From Saprospiraceae bacterium (lineage in GTDB: Bacteria; Bacteroidota; Bacteroidia; Chitinophagales; Saprospiraceae): 64,000 nucleotides of DNA. The stretch's first letter is position 1. Each line of letters starts with the position of its first letter. Under the pieces are notes generated by a model. It did no database searches. It saw only the letters and a program-made list of their open reading frames with translations, and was not told the DNA's origin. The stretch covers positions 1-64,000 of the forward strand of contig JAHDEC010000018.1 in the NCBI GenBank assembly GCA_020629035.1, in the 5' to 3' direction. Positions 9,069-13,898 of this stretch are shown here, one piece after another. The translations under genes and the position numbers were made by a program.

Positions 9069-10763
9069 ATGAACAAGTTTGTAATGCTCTTAGCCATTCT
9101 ATTGTCAACTGGCAAACTCATTTCTCAAGTTGAACAATATACCAACTCAGAAATAGATTCCATATTTAAAACCGTAAGTCAATTCCTTGAACCCAATGCC
9201 ATCGAATTGGATACCTTCCATTACACCAAGGATACCATTGGCCTTAAAAAAAAGGAAAAAGAACGCATCTTAAAAGAGGAAATATTAGAAGATGGTAAAC
9301 AAAATGCGCTATTTACCATCTATAAAAAAACCAATCTGAAGAATGGCTACATTGATAAAAATATATTAGCGGATAGTATAGAAAACTACCATAATTTTGA
9401 CACCTATCTGCTCGTAAATGATGACCTTGATAATTTCTTGGAACAAGGAAAATCAGATCCCCATTTGGTAGATAAATACAATCTAGCAGGCATAAAACAA
9501 AACTCTCTAATTCTAAAAAAACACATAAATGATATGATAGCAGAACGCTATTCCTTTTATGGTTTTACAAATACTTCTAAACAAGCTATCAAAAGTATTA
9601 ATGTATATCATGATAATGATTACTTCATGTTCTCTGAAAAAAATAAGGATCGAGACTACACTGGAGGGTTCCGTTTTGAGATTACTACTGACTACCTAAA
9701 AATGAGAGCCATAAAATTTGCTTTCAATTATGATAAAATACTGAGCTATCAAAGCTTTTTTGTCGGTGGAGAAGGATACACACCCTACATCCGATTTGAC
9801 ACAACAGCATTAAAAGCTGACGGTGTACCTTTTAGGTTTAATGAAGAACAATCTTACTTTGATGACTACAGTGTAGACACAATTTCTAATTATTTACAAG
9901 TAAAACAAGAAAAAACAGACCGCCCTTTTGCCTCATACCAATACATAGGCAGAGCTAAGTATCGACTGCATTATAGAGGTCATATTCGATCCAAAAGTTA
10001 TTTTAAATTGGGGTATATAGGCAAATCACTAGGCAGAGATATTCAAGCCATTCTGCATCGTGATTTTTTGTCTAAATCATTACGGGTATTAAACTGGGAT
10101 CGACAGATTGCAAATGGAGGGAGGTTAACCTTCAATATTGAACATAAATTTGATTTTATGTTGTTTTCAAAAGGCAATACAGTCTTTAATAGTAAAAAAG
10201 TAGATCCTACTTTTCAAGATTGCGGCTATGCCCATTTCTATATTCCAGTAGAGGCTGCTATCGGGTTTGCTAATACACATTATGGCTTTGGTCTTGGCTT
10301 TGCCACCCAATACTTTATTCGAACAAGCGGATTAAATGATATAAGCTATTCTTTTAAGCCCATTAGAGATTATGACACCAAATTTAAAAGGTATAAGTAC
10401 ATTGGTCAATATTTTTCAAGGTTAGCAAGACACACAAACTTCTTTCTAGAATTAAAATCAAGGCATGTAATTCACAATTCTATGTTACACGGTTTTGGCT
10501 GGAGAAAAAAGCTTGAAGTAGATAGACTTGATGATGAAGCGTTCACTCCTTATTGGCTTACTAAAGATCAAACCAACAACCTACTCCATATGCTAAATAT
10601 TGGCCTCAACTTTAGACTTAAGAAAATGTCTATTTATTATCATCAAACCAGATTCTTAAATAAAGAATTCGAAAAATTAGAAAACATCACAGGAGATCAA
10701 TCTAATTACACAACACCCAAATTTTATGGATGGGGTCGCCTCGGAGTAAATGTCATTTTATAA
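9069..10763 (+). CDS. LpxR-like outer-membrane protein (putative lipid A 3'-O-deacylase family)
   Basis: This 564-residue protein has a signal peptide (about 1-20, ending LISQ), a helical charged region to about 170, and then a long beta-rich part that looks like an outer-membrane barrel. The segment YHDNDYFMF followed by DRDYTGGFRFE resembles the N-terminal strand of LpxR, where an Asn-Asp pair is catalytic and a D/N-x-Y-T-G motif follows. LpxR removes the 3'-acyloxyacyl chain of lipid A. This protein is much longer than the roughly 320-residue enterobacterial enzyme, and the extra N-terminal 150 residues are unexplained. Residues equivalent to the catalytic Ser and His were not located with certainty, so enzymatic activity is an inference. 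Confidence 0.6.
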   Translation: MNKFVMLLAILLSTGKLISQVEQYTNSEIDSIFKTVSQFLEPNAIELDTFHYTKDTIGLKKKEKERILKEEILEDGKQNALFTIYKKTNLKNGYIDKNILADSIENYHNFDTYLLVNDDLDNFLEQGKSDPHLVDKYNLAGIKQNSLILKKHINDMIAERYSFYGFTNTSKQAIKSINVYHDNDYFMFSEKNKDRDYTGGFRFEITTDYLKMRAIKFAFNYDKILSYQSFFVGGEGYTPYIRFDTTALKADGVPFRFNEEQSYFDDYSVDTISNYLQVKQEKTDRPFASYQYIGRAKYRLHYRGHIRSKSYFKLGYIGKSLGRDIQAILHRDFLSKSLRVLNWDRQIANGGRLTFNIEHKFDFMLFSKGNTVFNSKKVDPTFQDCGYAHFYIPVEAAIGFANTHYGFGLGFATQYFIRTSGLNDISYSFKPIRDYDTKFKRYKYIGQYFSRLARHTNFFLELKSRHVIHNSMLHGFGWRKKLEVDRLDDEAFTPYWLTKDQTNNLLHMLNIGLNFRLKKMSIYYHQTRFLNKEFEKLENITGDQSNYTTPKFYGWGRLGVNVIL

Positions 10764-11340: not shown

Positions 11341-13155
11341 TTACTTAAGGAAAGTATACTTATAACCAAGTGAAACATTCCACTGGTTAAATTTATCTCG
11401 ATTAGGACCAATAGCAGTGCTGTTTAATGACTGCTCGTATGAAGGTCTTAGAAACAAACTTCCGTACTTTCCAAAACATCTTTCTAAGGAAATACCAGAC
11501 GTAAACCTCCAAAAGTTATTAGACCTAAGGCTTGCCAAATCTATTTGAACATCGACAGCAGATGCTTCCGACTTTTCACCTTTATTTTCTACTTCTTTAT
11601 GATCTATTCTCACCATGCTAGTAGGATAATCGGTTTGCCTAATCCACTGATAACTAAATCCACTACTTGCTGTTAATTTCCAACTATGATTTAGGTTCAT
11701 CGTATACCCAAGTTGCATTGGTACCGATAAATAATCATAACGGATTTGATCCAATGATTTGATAAAATAAATCTTGGTGTCTTCGTTTCCGAAAGTATCG
11801 ATTATTCCTGTTGGTTCATATTGCATGCTGCGTTGAGAAATCCCTGTGGACAAACCAAATTGTCCATAATTTACCTGCAATAAGACACCTTGTGATCGAG
11901 CACTACCCTGCTGCTCATAAGCATCAACATCAAAGGTAGGATCATAAGGTGTTAAAACGGTAAACTGATCAACCCCTGTTTCTAAAGCCAAACTTGCTGT
12001 CCATCCACTAGGATTACAATCGTCCAAGACCTTTTCTTTTAATGGAGAAAAATCGCTAGCTAATTTTATGGTTGCCCGCTCATCTTCTTCAGAAACTAAG
12101 GCCATTAGGGCTCCATTGTTCAATGTTGCTATACTAAGCCTAGATCTATCTTTAGATAAAACAGATTTAGAAGTATTTGTAAGATTCAAAGCAATATCAT
12201 CATTAGTCGAATAACTACTTGACTCTATGCTACTTAATGTTTCGCTAGCAAGCGTTTTTGCGTTATTCTTAGATACATTGGCTAGAGGCTTATTGTTTGC
12301 TTCGTTGTTGCTTATTTGGCTTAGCATCACTTCGGCCACTCTAGTTTGAGCAACTGCATTATCAGCAGTAGTTTTTCCCTCATTTTCTTTTATAAACTGA
12401 CTTGACTCTGGAGATTGACTCTGTAATTCACTTAGCTTATTTAGAGGTTTTACTTCACTGCTTAGAGCAGCAGTTTTATTAGTTTCTACACTCGCCATTA
12501 TTTGTTGTTCAGCAATGGTTACTGGTTGCTTTGACCATAAGTAGTTAAATACATTATAACTAGTTAATAACAGGGCAAACATGCAAGCTATTTCTAAACC
12601 TTTAATGCGTAAAATTGAGCCTTTCAGATAAGCAATTTGCTTAAGTCGCTCTTGTAAAAGAATCCAGTGTTCAGAAACATAACTTCTTCGATGATTATCA
12701 AGTGTTTCTGCCACTTCCTCATCGAAATTTGAATCTAATTCTTTGTTTAGTTTTTGTGAGAAGGCATTCCAGTCTGCCTTTCCTTTTTCGGTATTGGCTA
12801 CCTTTTCCTTTATTAATTCATCAAAAGATAGATCTGGGCTTTGTGCTGCGGCTAATTTATCTGCAAATACGGCCCAGTCTGGCGTTCCAGCAGTATGATT
12901 TTGTAATGCATCATTAATCGCATGATCAAATGTTCCATCGGGCGATAGAGCTTCTGTAAGTTTGTCAGAAAATACTGGCCAATCTGGGCTCCCGGTAGTA
13001 TAATCTTGCAACTCAGATTTGATATCATTATCAAAACTTGCGTCTAGATTCGCAGCTGCCATCTTCTGAGAAAACACATCCCAGTCAGCTGGCTTATCAA
13101 CGCGATGCTGATCTAGCTTGTTTTTTAATATGTCGTCAAATCTTTTATCTGCCAT
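11341..13155 (-). CDS. Putative dual-membrane-spanning anti-sigma protein: cytoplasmic repeats, one TM helix, outer-membrane barrel
   Basis: The 604-residue protein has no N-terminal signal peptide. Residues 6-179 hold five tandem units of about 35 residues, each starting FD and carrying a DW-x-x-F-S/A-x-K-L core (the fifth is degenerate). A single membrane helix follows at about 184-207, then a Ser/Asn/Lys-rich linker to about 380. The last 215 or so residues look like an outer-membrane beta-barrel of the PorT/OmpA-like type, with alternating strands and a terminal YKYTFLK. This order places the repeats in the cytoplasm and the barrel in the outer membrane. It lies seven bases after an ECF sigma gene in the same operon. 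The layout matches the Dma anti-sigma family described in Bacteroides. Function here is inferred from architecture and context. Confidence 0.7.
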   Translation of the reverse strand: MADKRFDDILKNKLDQHRVDKPADWDVFSQKMAAANLDASFDNDIKSELQDYTTGSPDWPVFSDKLTEALSPDGTFDHAINDALQNHTAGTPDWAVFADKLAAAQSPDLSFDELIKEKVANTEKGKADWNAFSQKLNKELDSNFDEEVAETLDNHRRSYVSEHWILLQERLKQIAYLKGSILRIKGLEIACMFALLLTSYNVFNYLWSKQPVTIAEQQIMASVETNKTAALSSEVKPLNKLSELQSQSPESSQFIKENEGKTTADNAVAQTRVAEVMLSQISNNEANNKPLANVSKNNAKTLASETLSSIESSSYSTNDDIALNLTNTSKSVLSKDRSRLSIATLNNGALMALVSEEDERATIKLASDFSPLKEKVLDDCNPSGWTASLALETGVDQFTVLTPYDPTFDVDAYEQQGSARSQGVLLQVNYGQFGLSTGISQRSMQYEPTGIIDTFGNEDTKIYFIKSLDQIRYDYLSVPMQLGYTMNLNHSWKLTASSGFSYQWIRQTDYPTSMVRIDHKEVENKGEKSEASAVDVQIDLASLRSNNFWRFTSGISLERCFGKYGSLFLRPSYEQSLNSTAIGPNRDKFNQWNVSLGYKYTFLK

Positions 13156-13162
13156 TTGGCTT

Positions 13163-13708
13163 TTATCTTCTGTTAAACATCGCCTTTAGTTTTCCTCGGG
13201 CTTTAACTAAATTAGATCTCGATGTACTTTCTGTTATCCCTAAATGTACACCTATTTCTTTATGGGAATATCCTTCGATGACATACATGTTAAACACGGT
13301 TCTATATACTGGTGATAATTTTTGTAGACCAGCAATAATTTCATCTGCTGACATATGACTTACCACATCATGTTCATTATTATGTATATCGTAAACATTA
13401 TCTATATCTTCTGTTCTTCGACGTACTTTCTTTCGGTATAAATCTATAGCAGTATTTACGATGACGCGTTTTATCCAGGCCTTGAGGGAAGTACCGACTT
13501 TATATTTAGATATGTTTCTAAATACTTTTATAAAACCATCGTGTAGTATATCTAAGGCTTCATCCTCATCGTCTGCATATCGCAAACATACTGGCAACAT
13601 CATAGAATAATGTTCCTCATATATCTTTTGCTGTGCCCACGATTCTTGTCGTACACATGCTTGGATAAAATCCTCCTCAGAAATTCCATGTTGTAATGAG
13701 TAATCCAT
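13163..13708 (-). CDS. ECF-type RNA polymerase sigma factor
   Basis: This is a 181-residue sigma-70 family protein. Region 2 lies at about residues 25-95 (YADDEDEALDILHDGFIKVF, SLKAWIKRVIVNTAID). Region 4 lies at about 120-178 (LQKLSPVYRTVFNMY, EGYSHKEIGVHLGI, and the recognition helix STSRSNLVKARGKLK). It is the first gene of a two-gene operon, with the dual-membrane barrel protein only seven bases downstream, the normal arrangement for a sigma factor and its regulator. A pair of CTTAATTAA direct repeats lies about 50-75 bases upstream. The protein is distinct from the sigma factor at 4854-5411. Confidence 0.92.
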   Translation of the reverse strand: MDYSLQHGISEEDFIQACVRQESWAQQKIYEEHYSMMLPVCLRYADDEDEALDILHDGFIKVFRNISKYKVGTSLKAWIKRVIVNTAIDLYRKKVRRRTEDIDNVYDIHNNEHDVVSHMSADEIIAGLQKLSPVYRTVFNMYVIEGYSHKEIGVHLGITESTSRSNLVKARGKLKAMFNRR

Positions 13709-13759: not shown

Positions 13760-13783
13760 CTTAATTAACGCCCTCTTAATTAA
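13760..13783. repeat. Two direct CTTAATTAA repeats between the sigma gene and parC
   Basis: CTTAATTAA occurs at 13760-13768 and 13775-13783, a 15-base period. Each copy contains the palindrome TTAATTAA. They lie upstream of the minus-strand sigma gene and about 120-140 bases before the parC promoter. They could be an operator, but AT-rich chance repeats are common in this genome. Confidence 0.35.
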
Positions 13784-13898
13784 AATCGCTGCTTCTTAAG
13801 ATAAATTTAATAGACATTATAGATTCAGTCATATTTATCTCCTTTTTTGTTTTGTCCAATGTCGTGATCAGTTATATTATCTTTTTATCTGATATGTT

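Follow-up and report, generated by a model that had tools for sequence, protein, structure and literature searches.

A putative dual-membrane-spanning anti-sigma factor with tandem two-helix units that vary in number across Saprospiraceae

A two-helix unit that is present as a single copy across the class Bacteroidia is tandemly multiplied and variable in number in Saprospiraceae, and from comparison of the sequences we recognise this as a new feature of membrane proteins encoded beside ECF sigma factors. The pair that led to it lies in a 64,000-nucleotide stretch of a Saprospiraceae genome (the window) and is very probably a sigma/anti-sigma system of the dual-membrane-spanning anti-sigma (Dma) type, with an anti-sigma protein anchored in both membranes. 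The system is real, its assignment to the Dma type is well supported, and it is novel in its tandem, variable, putatively sigma-handling units.

The two genes occupy 11341-13708 on the minus strand, sigma first, with a gap of 7 nt between them. A preliminary description of this DNA had placed a sigma factor and a 604-residue protein seven bases apart, and its coordinates, lengths and gap were all exact. The features of the locus are as follows.

11341..13155, minus strand: putative dual-membrane-spanning anti-sigma factor, 604 aa (ORF and AlphaFold2 model)
11347..12003, minus strand: outer-membrane beta-barrel, aa 385-603 (pLDDT mostly >90; 11 strands of three or more residues)
12016..12531, minus strand: periplasmic tether, predicted to be disordered, aa 209-380 (pLDDT mostly about 40-55)
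12538..12615, minus strand: membrane helix, about aa 181-206 (sole hydrophobic maximum; within model helix 161-208)
12643..12726, minus strand: repeat R5, the membrane-proximal HW variant, aa 144-171 (repeat HMM 27.3 bits)
12748..12825, minus strand: repeat R4, aa 111-136 (repeat HMM 24.6 bits; helices 109-120 and 126-138)
12853..12930, minus strand: repeat R3, aa 76-101 (repeat HMM 24.4 bits; helices 75-85 and 94-104)
12958..13035, minus strand: repeat R2, aa 41-66 (repeat HMM 22.8 bits; helices 42-50 and 59-69)
13060..13140, minus strand: repeat R1, aa 6-32 (repeat HMM 32.4 bits; helices 5-16 and 25-35)
13163..13708, minus strand: ECF sigma factor, 181 aa (TIGR02937, E=1e-25)
13187..13342, minus strand: sigma region 4, aa 123-174 (Pfam PF08281, Sigma70_r4_2, 3.3e-14)
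13421..13624, minus strand: sigma region 2, aa 29-96 (Pfam PF04542, Sigma70_r2, 7.6e-15)
13766..13792, minus strand: putative autoregulatory ECF promoter, GCAGC (-35-like)-N17-CGTTA (-10-like), a motif common to the family

The Sigma70_r2 and Sigma70_r4_2 scores of the sigma factor were far above the Pfam cut-off, and its class is assigned at the level of the ECF superfamily; the partner of a Dma protein would be expected to fall in group ECF21. For the 604-aa protein, NCBIfam returned no meaningful match and Pfam returned weak matches only, which fell in the C-terminal barrel or arose by chance. The gene for topoisomerase IV subunit A is the divergent neighbour of the pair, both in the window and at 38 loci. 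At 9069-10763, an LpxR-like outer-membrane protein (Pfam 2.4e-13), followed by smpB, is encoded convergently to the anti-sigma gene, and this order is kept at the orthologous locus L001.

The N-terminal part of the 604-aa protein is built of five units that start at residues 6, 41, 76, 111 and 144, with spacings of 35, 35, 35 and 33 residues. Five tandem FD...DW repeats had been proposed here; the number and the ~35-residue spacing hold, but the fifth unit departs from the pattern, since R1-R4 read FD...DW-x-x-F-[SA]-x-K-[LM] and R5 reads FD...HW-I-L-L-Q-E-R-L. When R5 was aligned with the membrane-proximal units of 26 relatives, the W was invariant, as was a Glu where the membrane helix begins. 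An AlphaFold2 model of the protein, built from an alignment of 110 sequences, contained five hairpins of two helices each (R1-R4 at a pLDDT of about 50-75), and each unit has a core of 28 aa with two helices and a length of about 28-35 aa. First, middle and last units and those from outside the family share the pattern F-D-x-x-I-[KR]-x-x-L ... W-x-x-[FLM]-x-x-[KR]-L, in which the invariance of the W is partly built in because W was demanded at seed selection. Neither Pfam nor NCBIfam holds a curated model for the unit, and neither gave a class I anti-sigma domain (ASDI/ZAS, about 100 aa) above cut-off. Comparison of the unit by sequence with solved structures yielded spurious matches only, for example to designed proteins, and no solved anti-sigma factor.

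The units of the window protein share 23-58% identity with one another, and they are less alike than the orthologous units of the window protein and its sister-species counterpart (R1 96%, R4 73%, R5 75%). The units are diverged and specific to their positions, which rules out that a tandem duplication has homogenised them recently. In the same comparison with the sister species, identity was 69% for R2, 50% for R3, 29% for the tether, 68% for the barrel and 97% for the sigma factor. Over 18 close pairs of relatives, the repeats were generally better conserved than the tether, and no fixed ranking by unit position emerged.

The arrangement of the protein relative to the two membranes agrees with what the preliminary description had suggested in each respect that we followed up. 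There is no N-terminal signal, no hydrophobic segment precedes residue ~179, and a single membrane segment spans about residues 179-206, as expected from the earlier reading of a protein that lacks a signal peptide and has one membrane helix. In the AlphaFold2 model, a helix covering residues 161-208 links the second helix of R5 with the membrane helix. Of 135 relatives, 116 have more lysine and arginine in the flank preceding the membrane helix than in the one following it, and 5 have fewer; by this charge bias the repeats are expected to face the cytoplasm, the side to which they had been assigned. The long linker and the C-terminal barrel were likewise borne out, by predicted disorder over residues 209-380 and a predicted barrel over residues 385-603 for which Foldseek found OmpA, Ail and OprG (best E 8e-9). 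By sequence, the barrel had a weak match to OMP_b-brl that lay under the Pfam cut-off (2.3e-4).

A whole-protein search gave matches in 139 of 199 Saprospiraceae genomes, and nearly the whole family has the system (140/149 genomes, 82/86 genera). Among 111 family loci the protein carries one unit in 4 cases, two in 49, three in 39, four in 11, five in 7 and ten in 1, a distribution that may lean towards the window protein because loci were chosen largely by similarity to it. The largest count, ten tandem units, was found in an 823-aa relative (L022:955-3426). The variation in repeat number that had been anticipated beside sigma genes of other Saprospiraceae thus exists and extends from 1 to 10 units. 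In these 111 loci the position of the membrane helix shifts by 36.5 residues for each added unit (r = 0.97). Mapped in four classes onto a sigma-factor phylogeny, many of whose branches have weak support, copy number changed at least 33 times and is clustered but labile. The 38 loci flanked by topoisomerase IV subunit A hold 2, 3, 4 or 5 units, and copy number therefore varies at one orthologous locus.

The source genome encodes eight further sigma/anti-sigma pairs on other contigs (L237-L243 and L245), each with one unit, which rules out that all such pairs of this genome are multi-unit. Among these single-unit proteins are short ones as well as several of 340-510 aa, which may have a C-terminal barrel.

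Outside the family the unit is widespread and solitary. A broader profile of the unit had matches in 334 of 396 Bacteroidia genomes (168/199 genera), and a repeat private to the source species is thereby ruled out. Outside loci were first found with a profile that covered the membrane-proximal unit and the membrane helix, and more came from a class-wide search. All of the about 39 distinct non-Saprospiraceae loci examined (overlapping sets of 24 and 27) had one unit each. In these proteins the membrane helix begins at aa 35-55, which leaves space for a single unit, and that unit is the entire cytoplasmic part of a sigma-adjacent membrane protein. The five-fold repeat, which the preliminary description had singled out as the unusual part, is thus unusual against the single copy of Bacteroidia, but within Saprospiraceae repetition is normal. 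A profile built from 24 non-Saprospiraceae proteins alone recognised the unit in 111 of 111 Saprospiraceae proteins, with 287 domains at ≥3 bits compared with 9 in 555 shuffled sequences. On the window protein, this outside-built profile gave clear matches to R1, R4 and R5 and weak ones to R2 and R3.

The association with a sigma factor is nearly constant. An ECF sigma gene lies immediately upstream at 134 of 137 loci, and the remaining three comprise one sigma gene with a longer overlap, one sigma fragment and one contig end; sigma adjacency was also found at all 30 loci of the class-wide search. Among 108 Saprospiraceae sigma/anti-sigma pairs, 80 have overlapping genes and a further 23 are no more than 15 nt apart. 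Five proteins from outside the family (L039 and L047-L050) are about 250 aa long and have no barrel, yet they keep the unit, the membrane helix and the sigma neighbour. Because sigma adjacency is constant even in these barrel-less relatives, the unit is the leading candidate for handling the sigma factor. A sigma-handling role of the repeat gains support from the outside loci, where one unit makes up the whole cytoplasmic domain. Another single-unit, sigma-adjacent protein (L043:1471-2778) has no barrel and ends in a PKD domain and a type IX secretion-like tail (CHU_C match under cut-off), so the unit can be joined to differing outer ends.

We also looked for the promoter from which the sigma factor might act. 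In the window, the promoter motif ends 57 nt ahead of the sigma start codon. The pattern GCAGC-N16/17-CGTT was found upstream of the sigma gene at 82 of 106 Saprospiraceae loci and at none of 24 outside loci, and almost no loci had GCAGC and CGTT at spacings other than 16/17. In the sister species the two elements are conserved, unlike the spacer. These observations suggest autoregulation, with the sigma factor recognising the GCAGC-N17-CGTT promoter upstream of its gene. Genome-wide, the motif was in slight excess over a reversed-pattern control in the source genome (13 vs 7) and in the sister species (14 vs 6), and there was no excess over the control across 60 family genomes. In the source genome, only three sites lie between genes and have a suitably positioned gene downstream of them. 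We therefore claim no large regulon, given the slight excess and these three sites. In the source genome and the sister species alike, the motif lies 95 nt ahead of the start of a secreted protein of at least 477 aa that has no Pfam match (L144:262-1794 and L166); besides the operon, this is the sole candidate target conserved in both members of the genus. In the genome of the window, the motif also occurs 160 nt upstream of a DUF4197 lipoprotein gene (L151:1660-2379).

Comparison with known regulators places the pair closest to the Dma family, which in Bacteroides thetaiotaomicron includes Dma1/Das1 and Dma2/Das2 (2026 J Bacteriol, PMC13088901). As had been suggested from the sequence of the window, the match consists of the four-part layout and the sigma neighbour described for those proteins (PMC13088901). 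Both Dma1 and Dma2 have an N-terminal anti-sigma region, one membrane helix, a long disordered tether, a C-terminal barrel and an adjacent ECF sigma factor. The difference is that they have one N-terminal domain, whereas the window protein has five tandem units and its relatives across Saprospiraceae have 1-10. The paper on Dma2 does not mention a tandem repeat (PMC13088901). Dma3 shares the membrane-spanning anti-sigma architecture but contains an N-terminal sigma domain of its own (PMC13088901), whereas here the sigma factor is encoded by a separate gene. FecR-type systems also relay the state of the outer membrane to an ECF sigma factor; they do so through a separate TonB-dependent receptor, whereas here the barrel and the anti-sigma region belong to one chain, and a Pfam search of the proteins of the locus found no FecR domain. 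No report of tandem anti-sigma units was found in the open-access papers searched. The first paper on the Dma family is that of Pardue et al. (PNAS, 2024).

The unit itself is most reminiscent of CnrY, whose two-helix anti-sigma domain contacts sigma4 and sigma2 (PMC7406223). Like class II domains of the CnrY type, it is a short (<50 aa) two-helix cytoplasmic domain that precedes one membrane helix; it differs in that it occurs here in tandem copies, and no sequence match between the unit and a class II domain was found. To our knowledge, CnrY has no outer-membrane barrel. By analogy, we infer that the unit binds the sigma factor, probably in a CnrY-like two-helix manner, and that this binding would inhibit it.

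A Dma-like layout is supported by the sigma neighbour, the charge of the N-terminal side, the membrane helix, the disordered tether and the C-terminal barrel, and suggests how such a system could work. At rest, the cytoplasmic tandem two-helix units would hold the ECF sigma factor, while the single helix would cross the inner membrane, the disordered tether the periplasm, and the small barrel would sit in the outer membrane, where it may sense the signal. Disturbance of the barrel or the tether (misassembly, lost tension or cleavage) would release the sigma factor, which would then switch on the operon that encodes it, through the GCAGC-N17-CGTT promoter, and perhaps a small number of surface genes.

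Within the Dma-type explanation, the role of the multiple units can be read in two ways, which are versions of it rather than alternatives to it and which we give similar weight. Each unit may bind one sigma factor, so that copy number would set the holding capacity and give a sharper threshold or a tighter off state. We hold this tentatively, as a real possibility: the shared hydrophobic positions are kept in all five window units, the repeats are generally better conserved than the tether between close relatives, and copy number ranges from 1 to 10 while the sigma factor and the promoter type stay constant. Against it, R3 and R2 are weak with the outside profile, and the sigma and anti-sigma proteins are encoded 1:1 in a single operon, so the additional sites might stay empty. 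Nor did modelling yield a confident docking, an outcome that speaks neither for contact between the sigma factor and the repeats nor against it: AlphaFold2 gave a pTM of 0.43 for the sigma factor and five repeats of L001 as one chain, from 15 paired rows and with no inter-domain error map. That chain was a read-through product of the sigma factor, its in-frame stop read as Gly, 6 in-frame nt and then the five repeats; Foldseek on the model matched sigma chains. It is also quite conceivable, if still short of probable, that one or two units (likeliest R1 and/or R5) hold the sigma factor and that the rest serve as spacers, avidity elements or swapped halves, with one sigma factor shared between neighbouring units. 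The position-specific divergence of the units, which are closer to their orthologues than to their neighbours in the same protein, points in this direction, as does R5 with its own HW variant that runs on into the membrane helix. Against it stand the presence of the core residues in all units and the 18 close pairs, among which positional conservation followed no consistent ranking.

Two other readings depart from the Dma-type explanation. The 604-aa protein might be a positive regulator that acts as a FecR-like chaperone of its sigma factor; FecR-type regulators are present in Bacteroidota, and the same gene order and membrane anchoring would be expected of one. We consider this unlikely, as Dma1 and Dma2, with the same layout, inhibit their sigma factors: the phenotypes tied to them depend on the sigma gene, and expression of das2 rises in a dma2 mutant (PMC13088901). 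A barrel and a membrane helix in one chain would link the inner and outer membranes whatever else the protein does, so the pairing with a sigma factor could be incidental to a purely structural tether. This seems very improbable, given that throughout the class virtually all loci with complete flanks have an adjoining sigma gene, that the two genes often overlap in the family, and that the barrel-less relatives outside the family still have the unit and the sigma factor.

A Dma-type pair, then, remains our reading of the locus, and its unit bears on a wider question in this group. Class I anti-sigma domains are found beside 6% of ECFs in Bacteroidetes, compared with 32% on average (PMC7406223), and an uncatalogued two-helix unit present in most Bacteroidia genomes could fill part of that gap. 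With its series of 1-10 units and its conserved promoter, the Saprospiraceae system offers a natural dose series for the question of whether copy number sets the capacity or threshold for holding sigma. If each unit does bind one sigma factor, evolution would tune the threshold of the outer-membrane response in this family by gain and loss of units, from 1 to 10.
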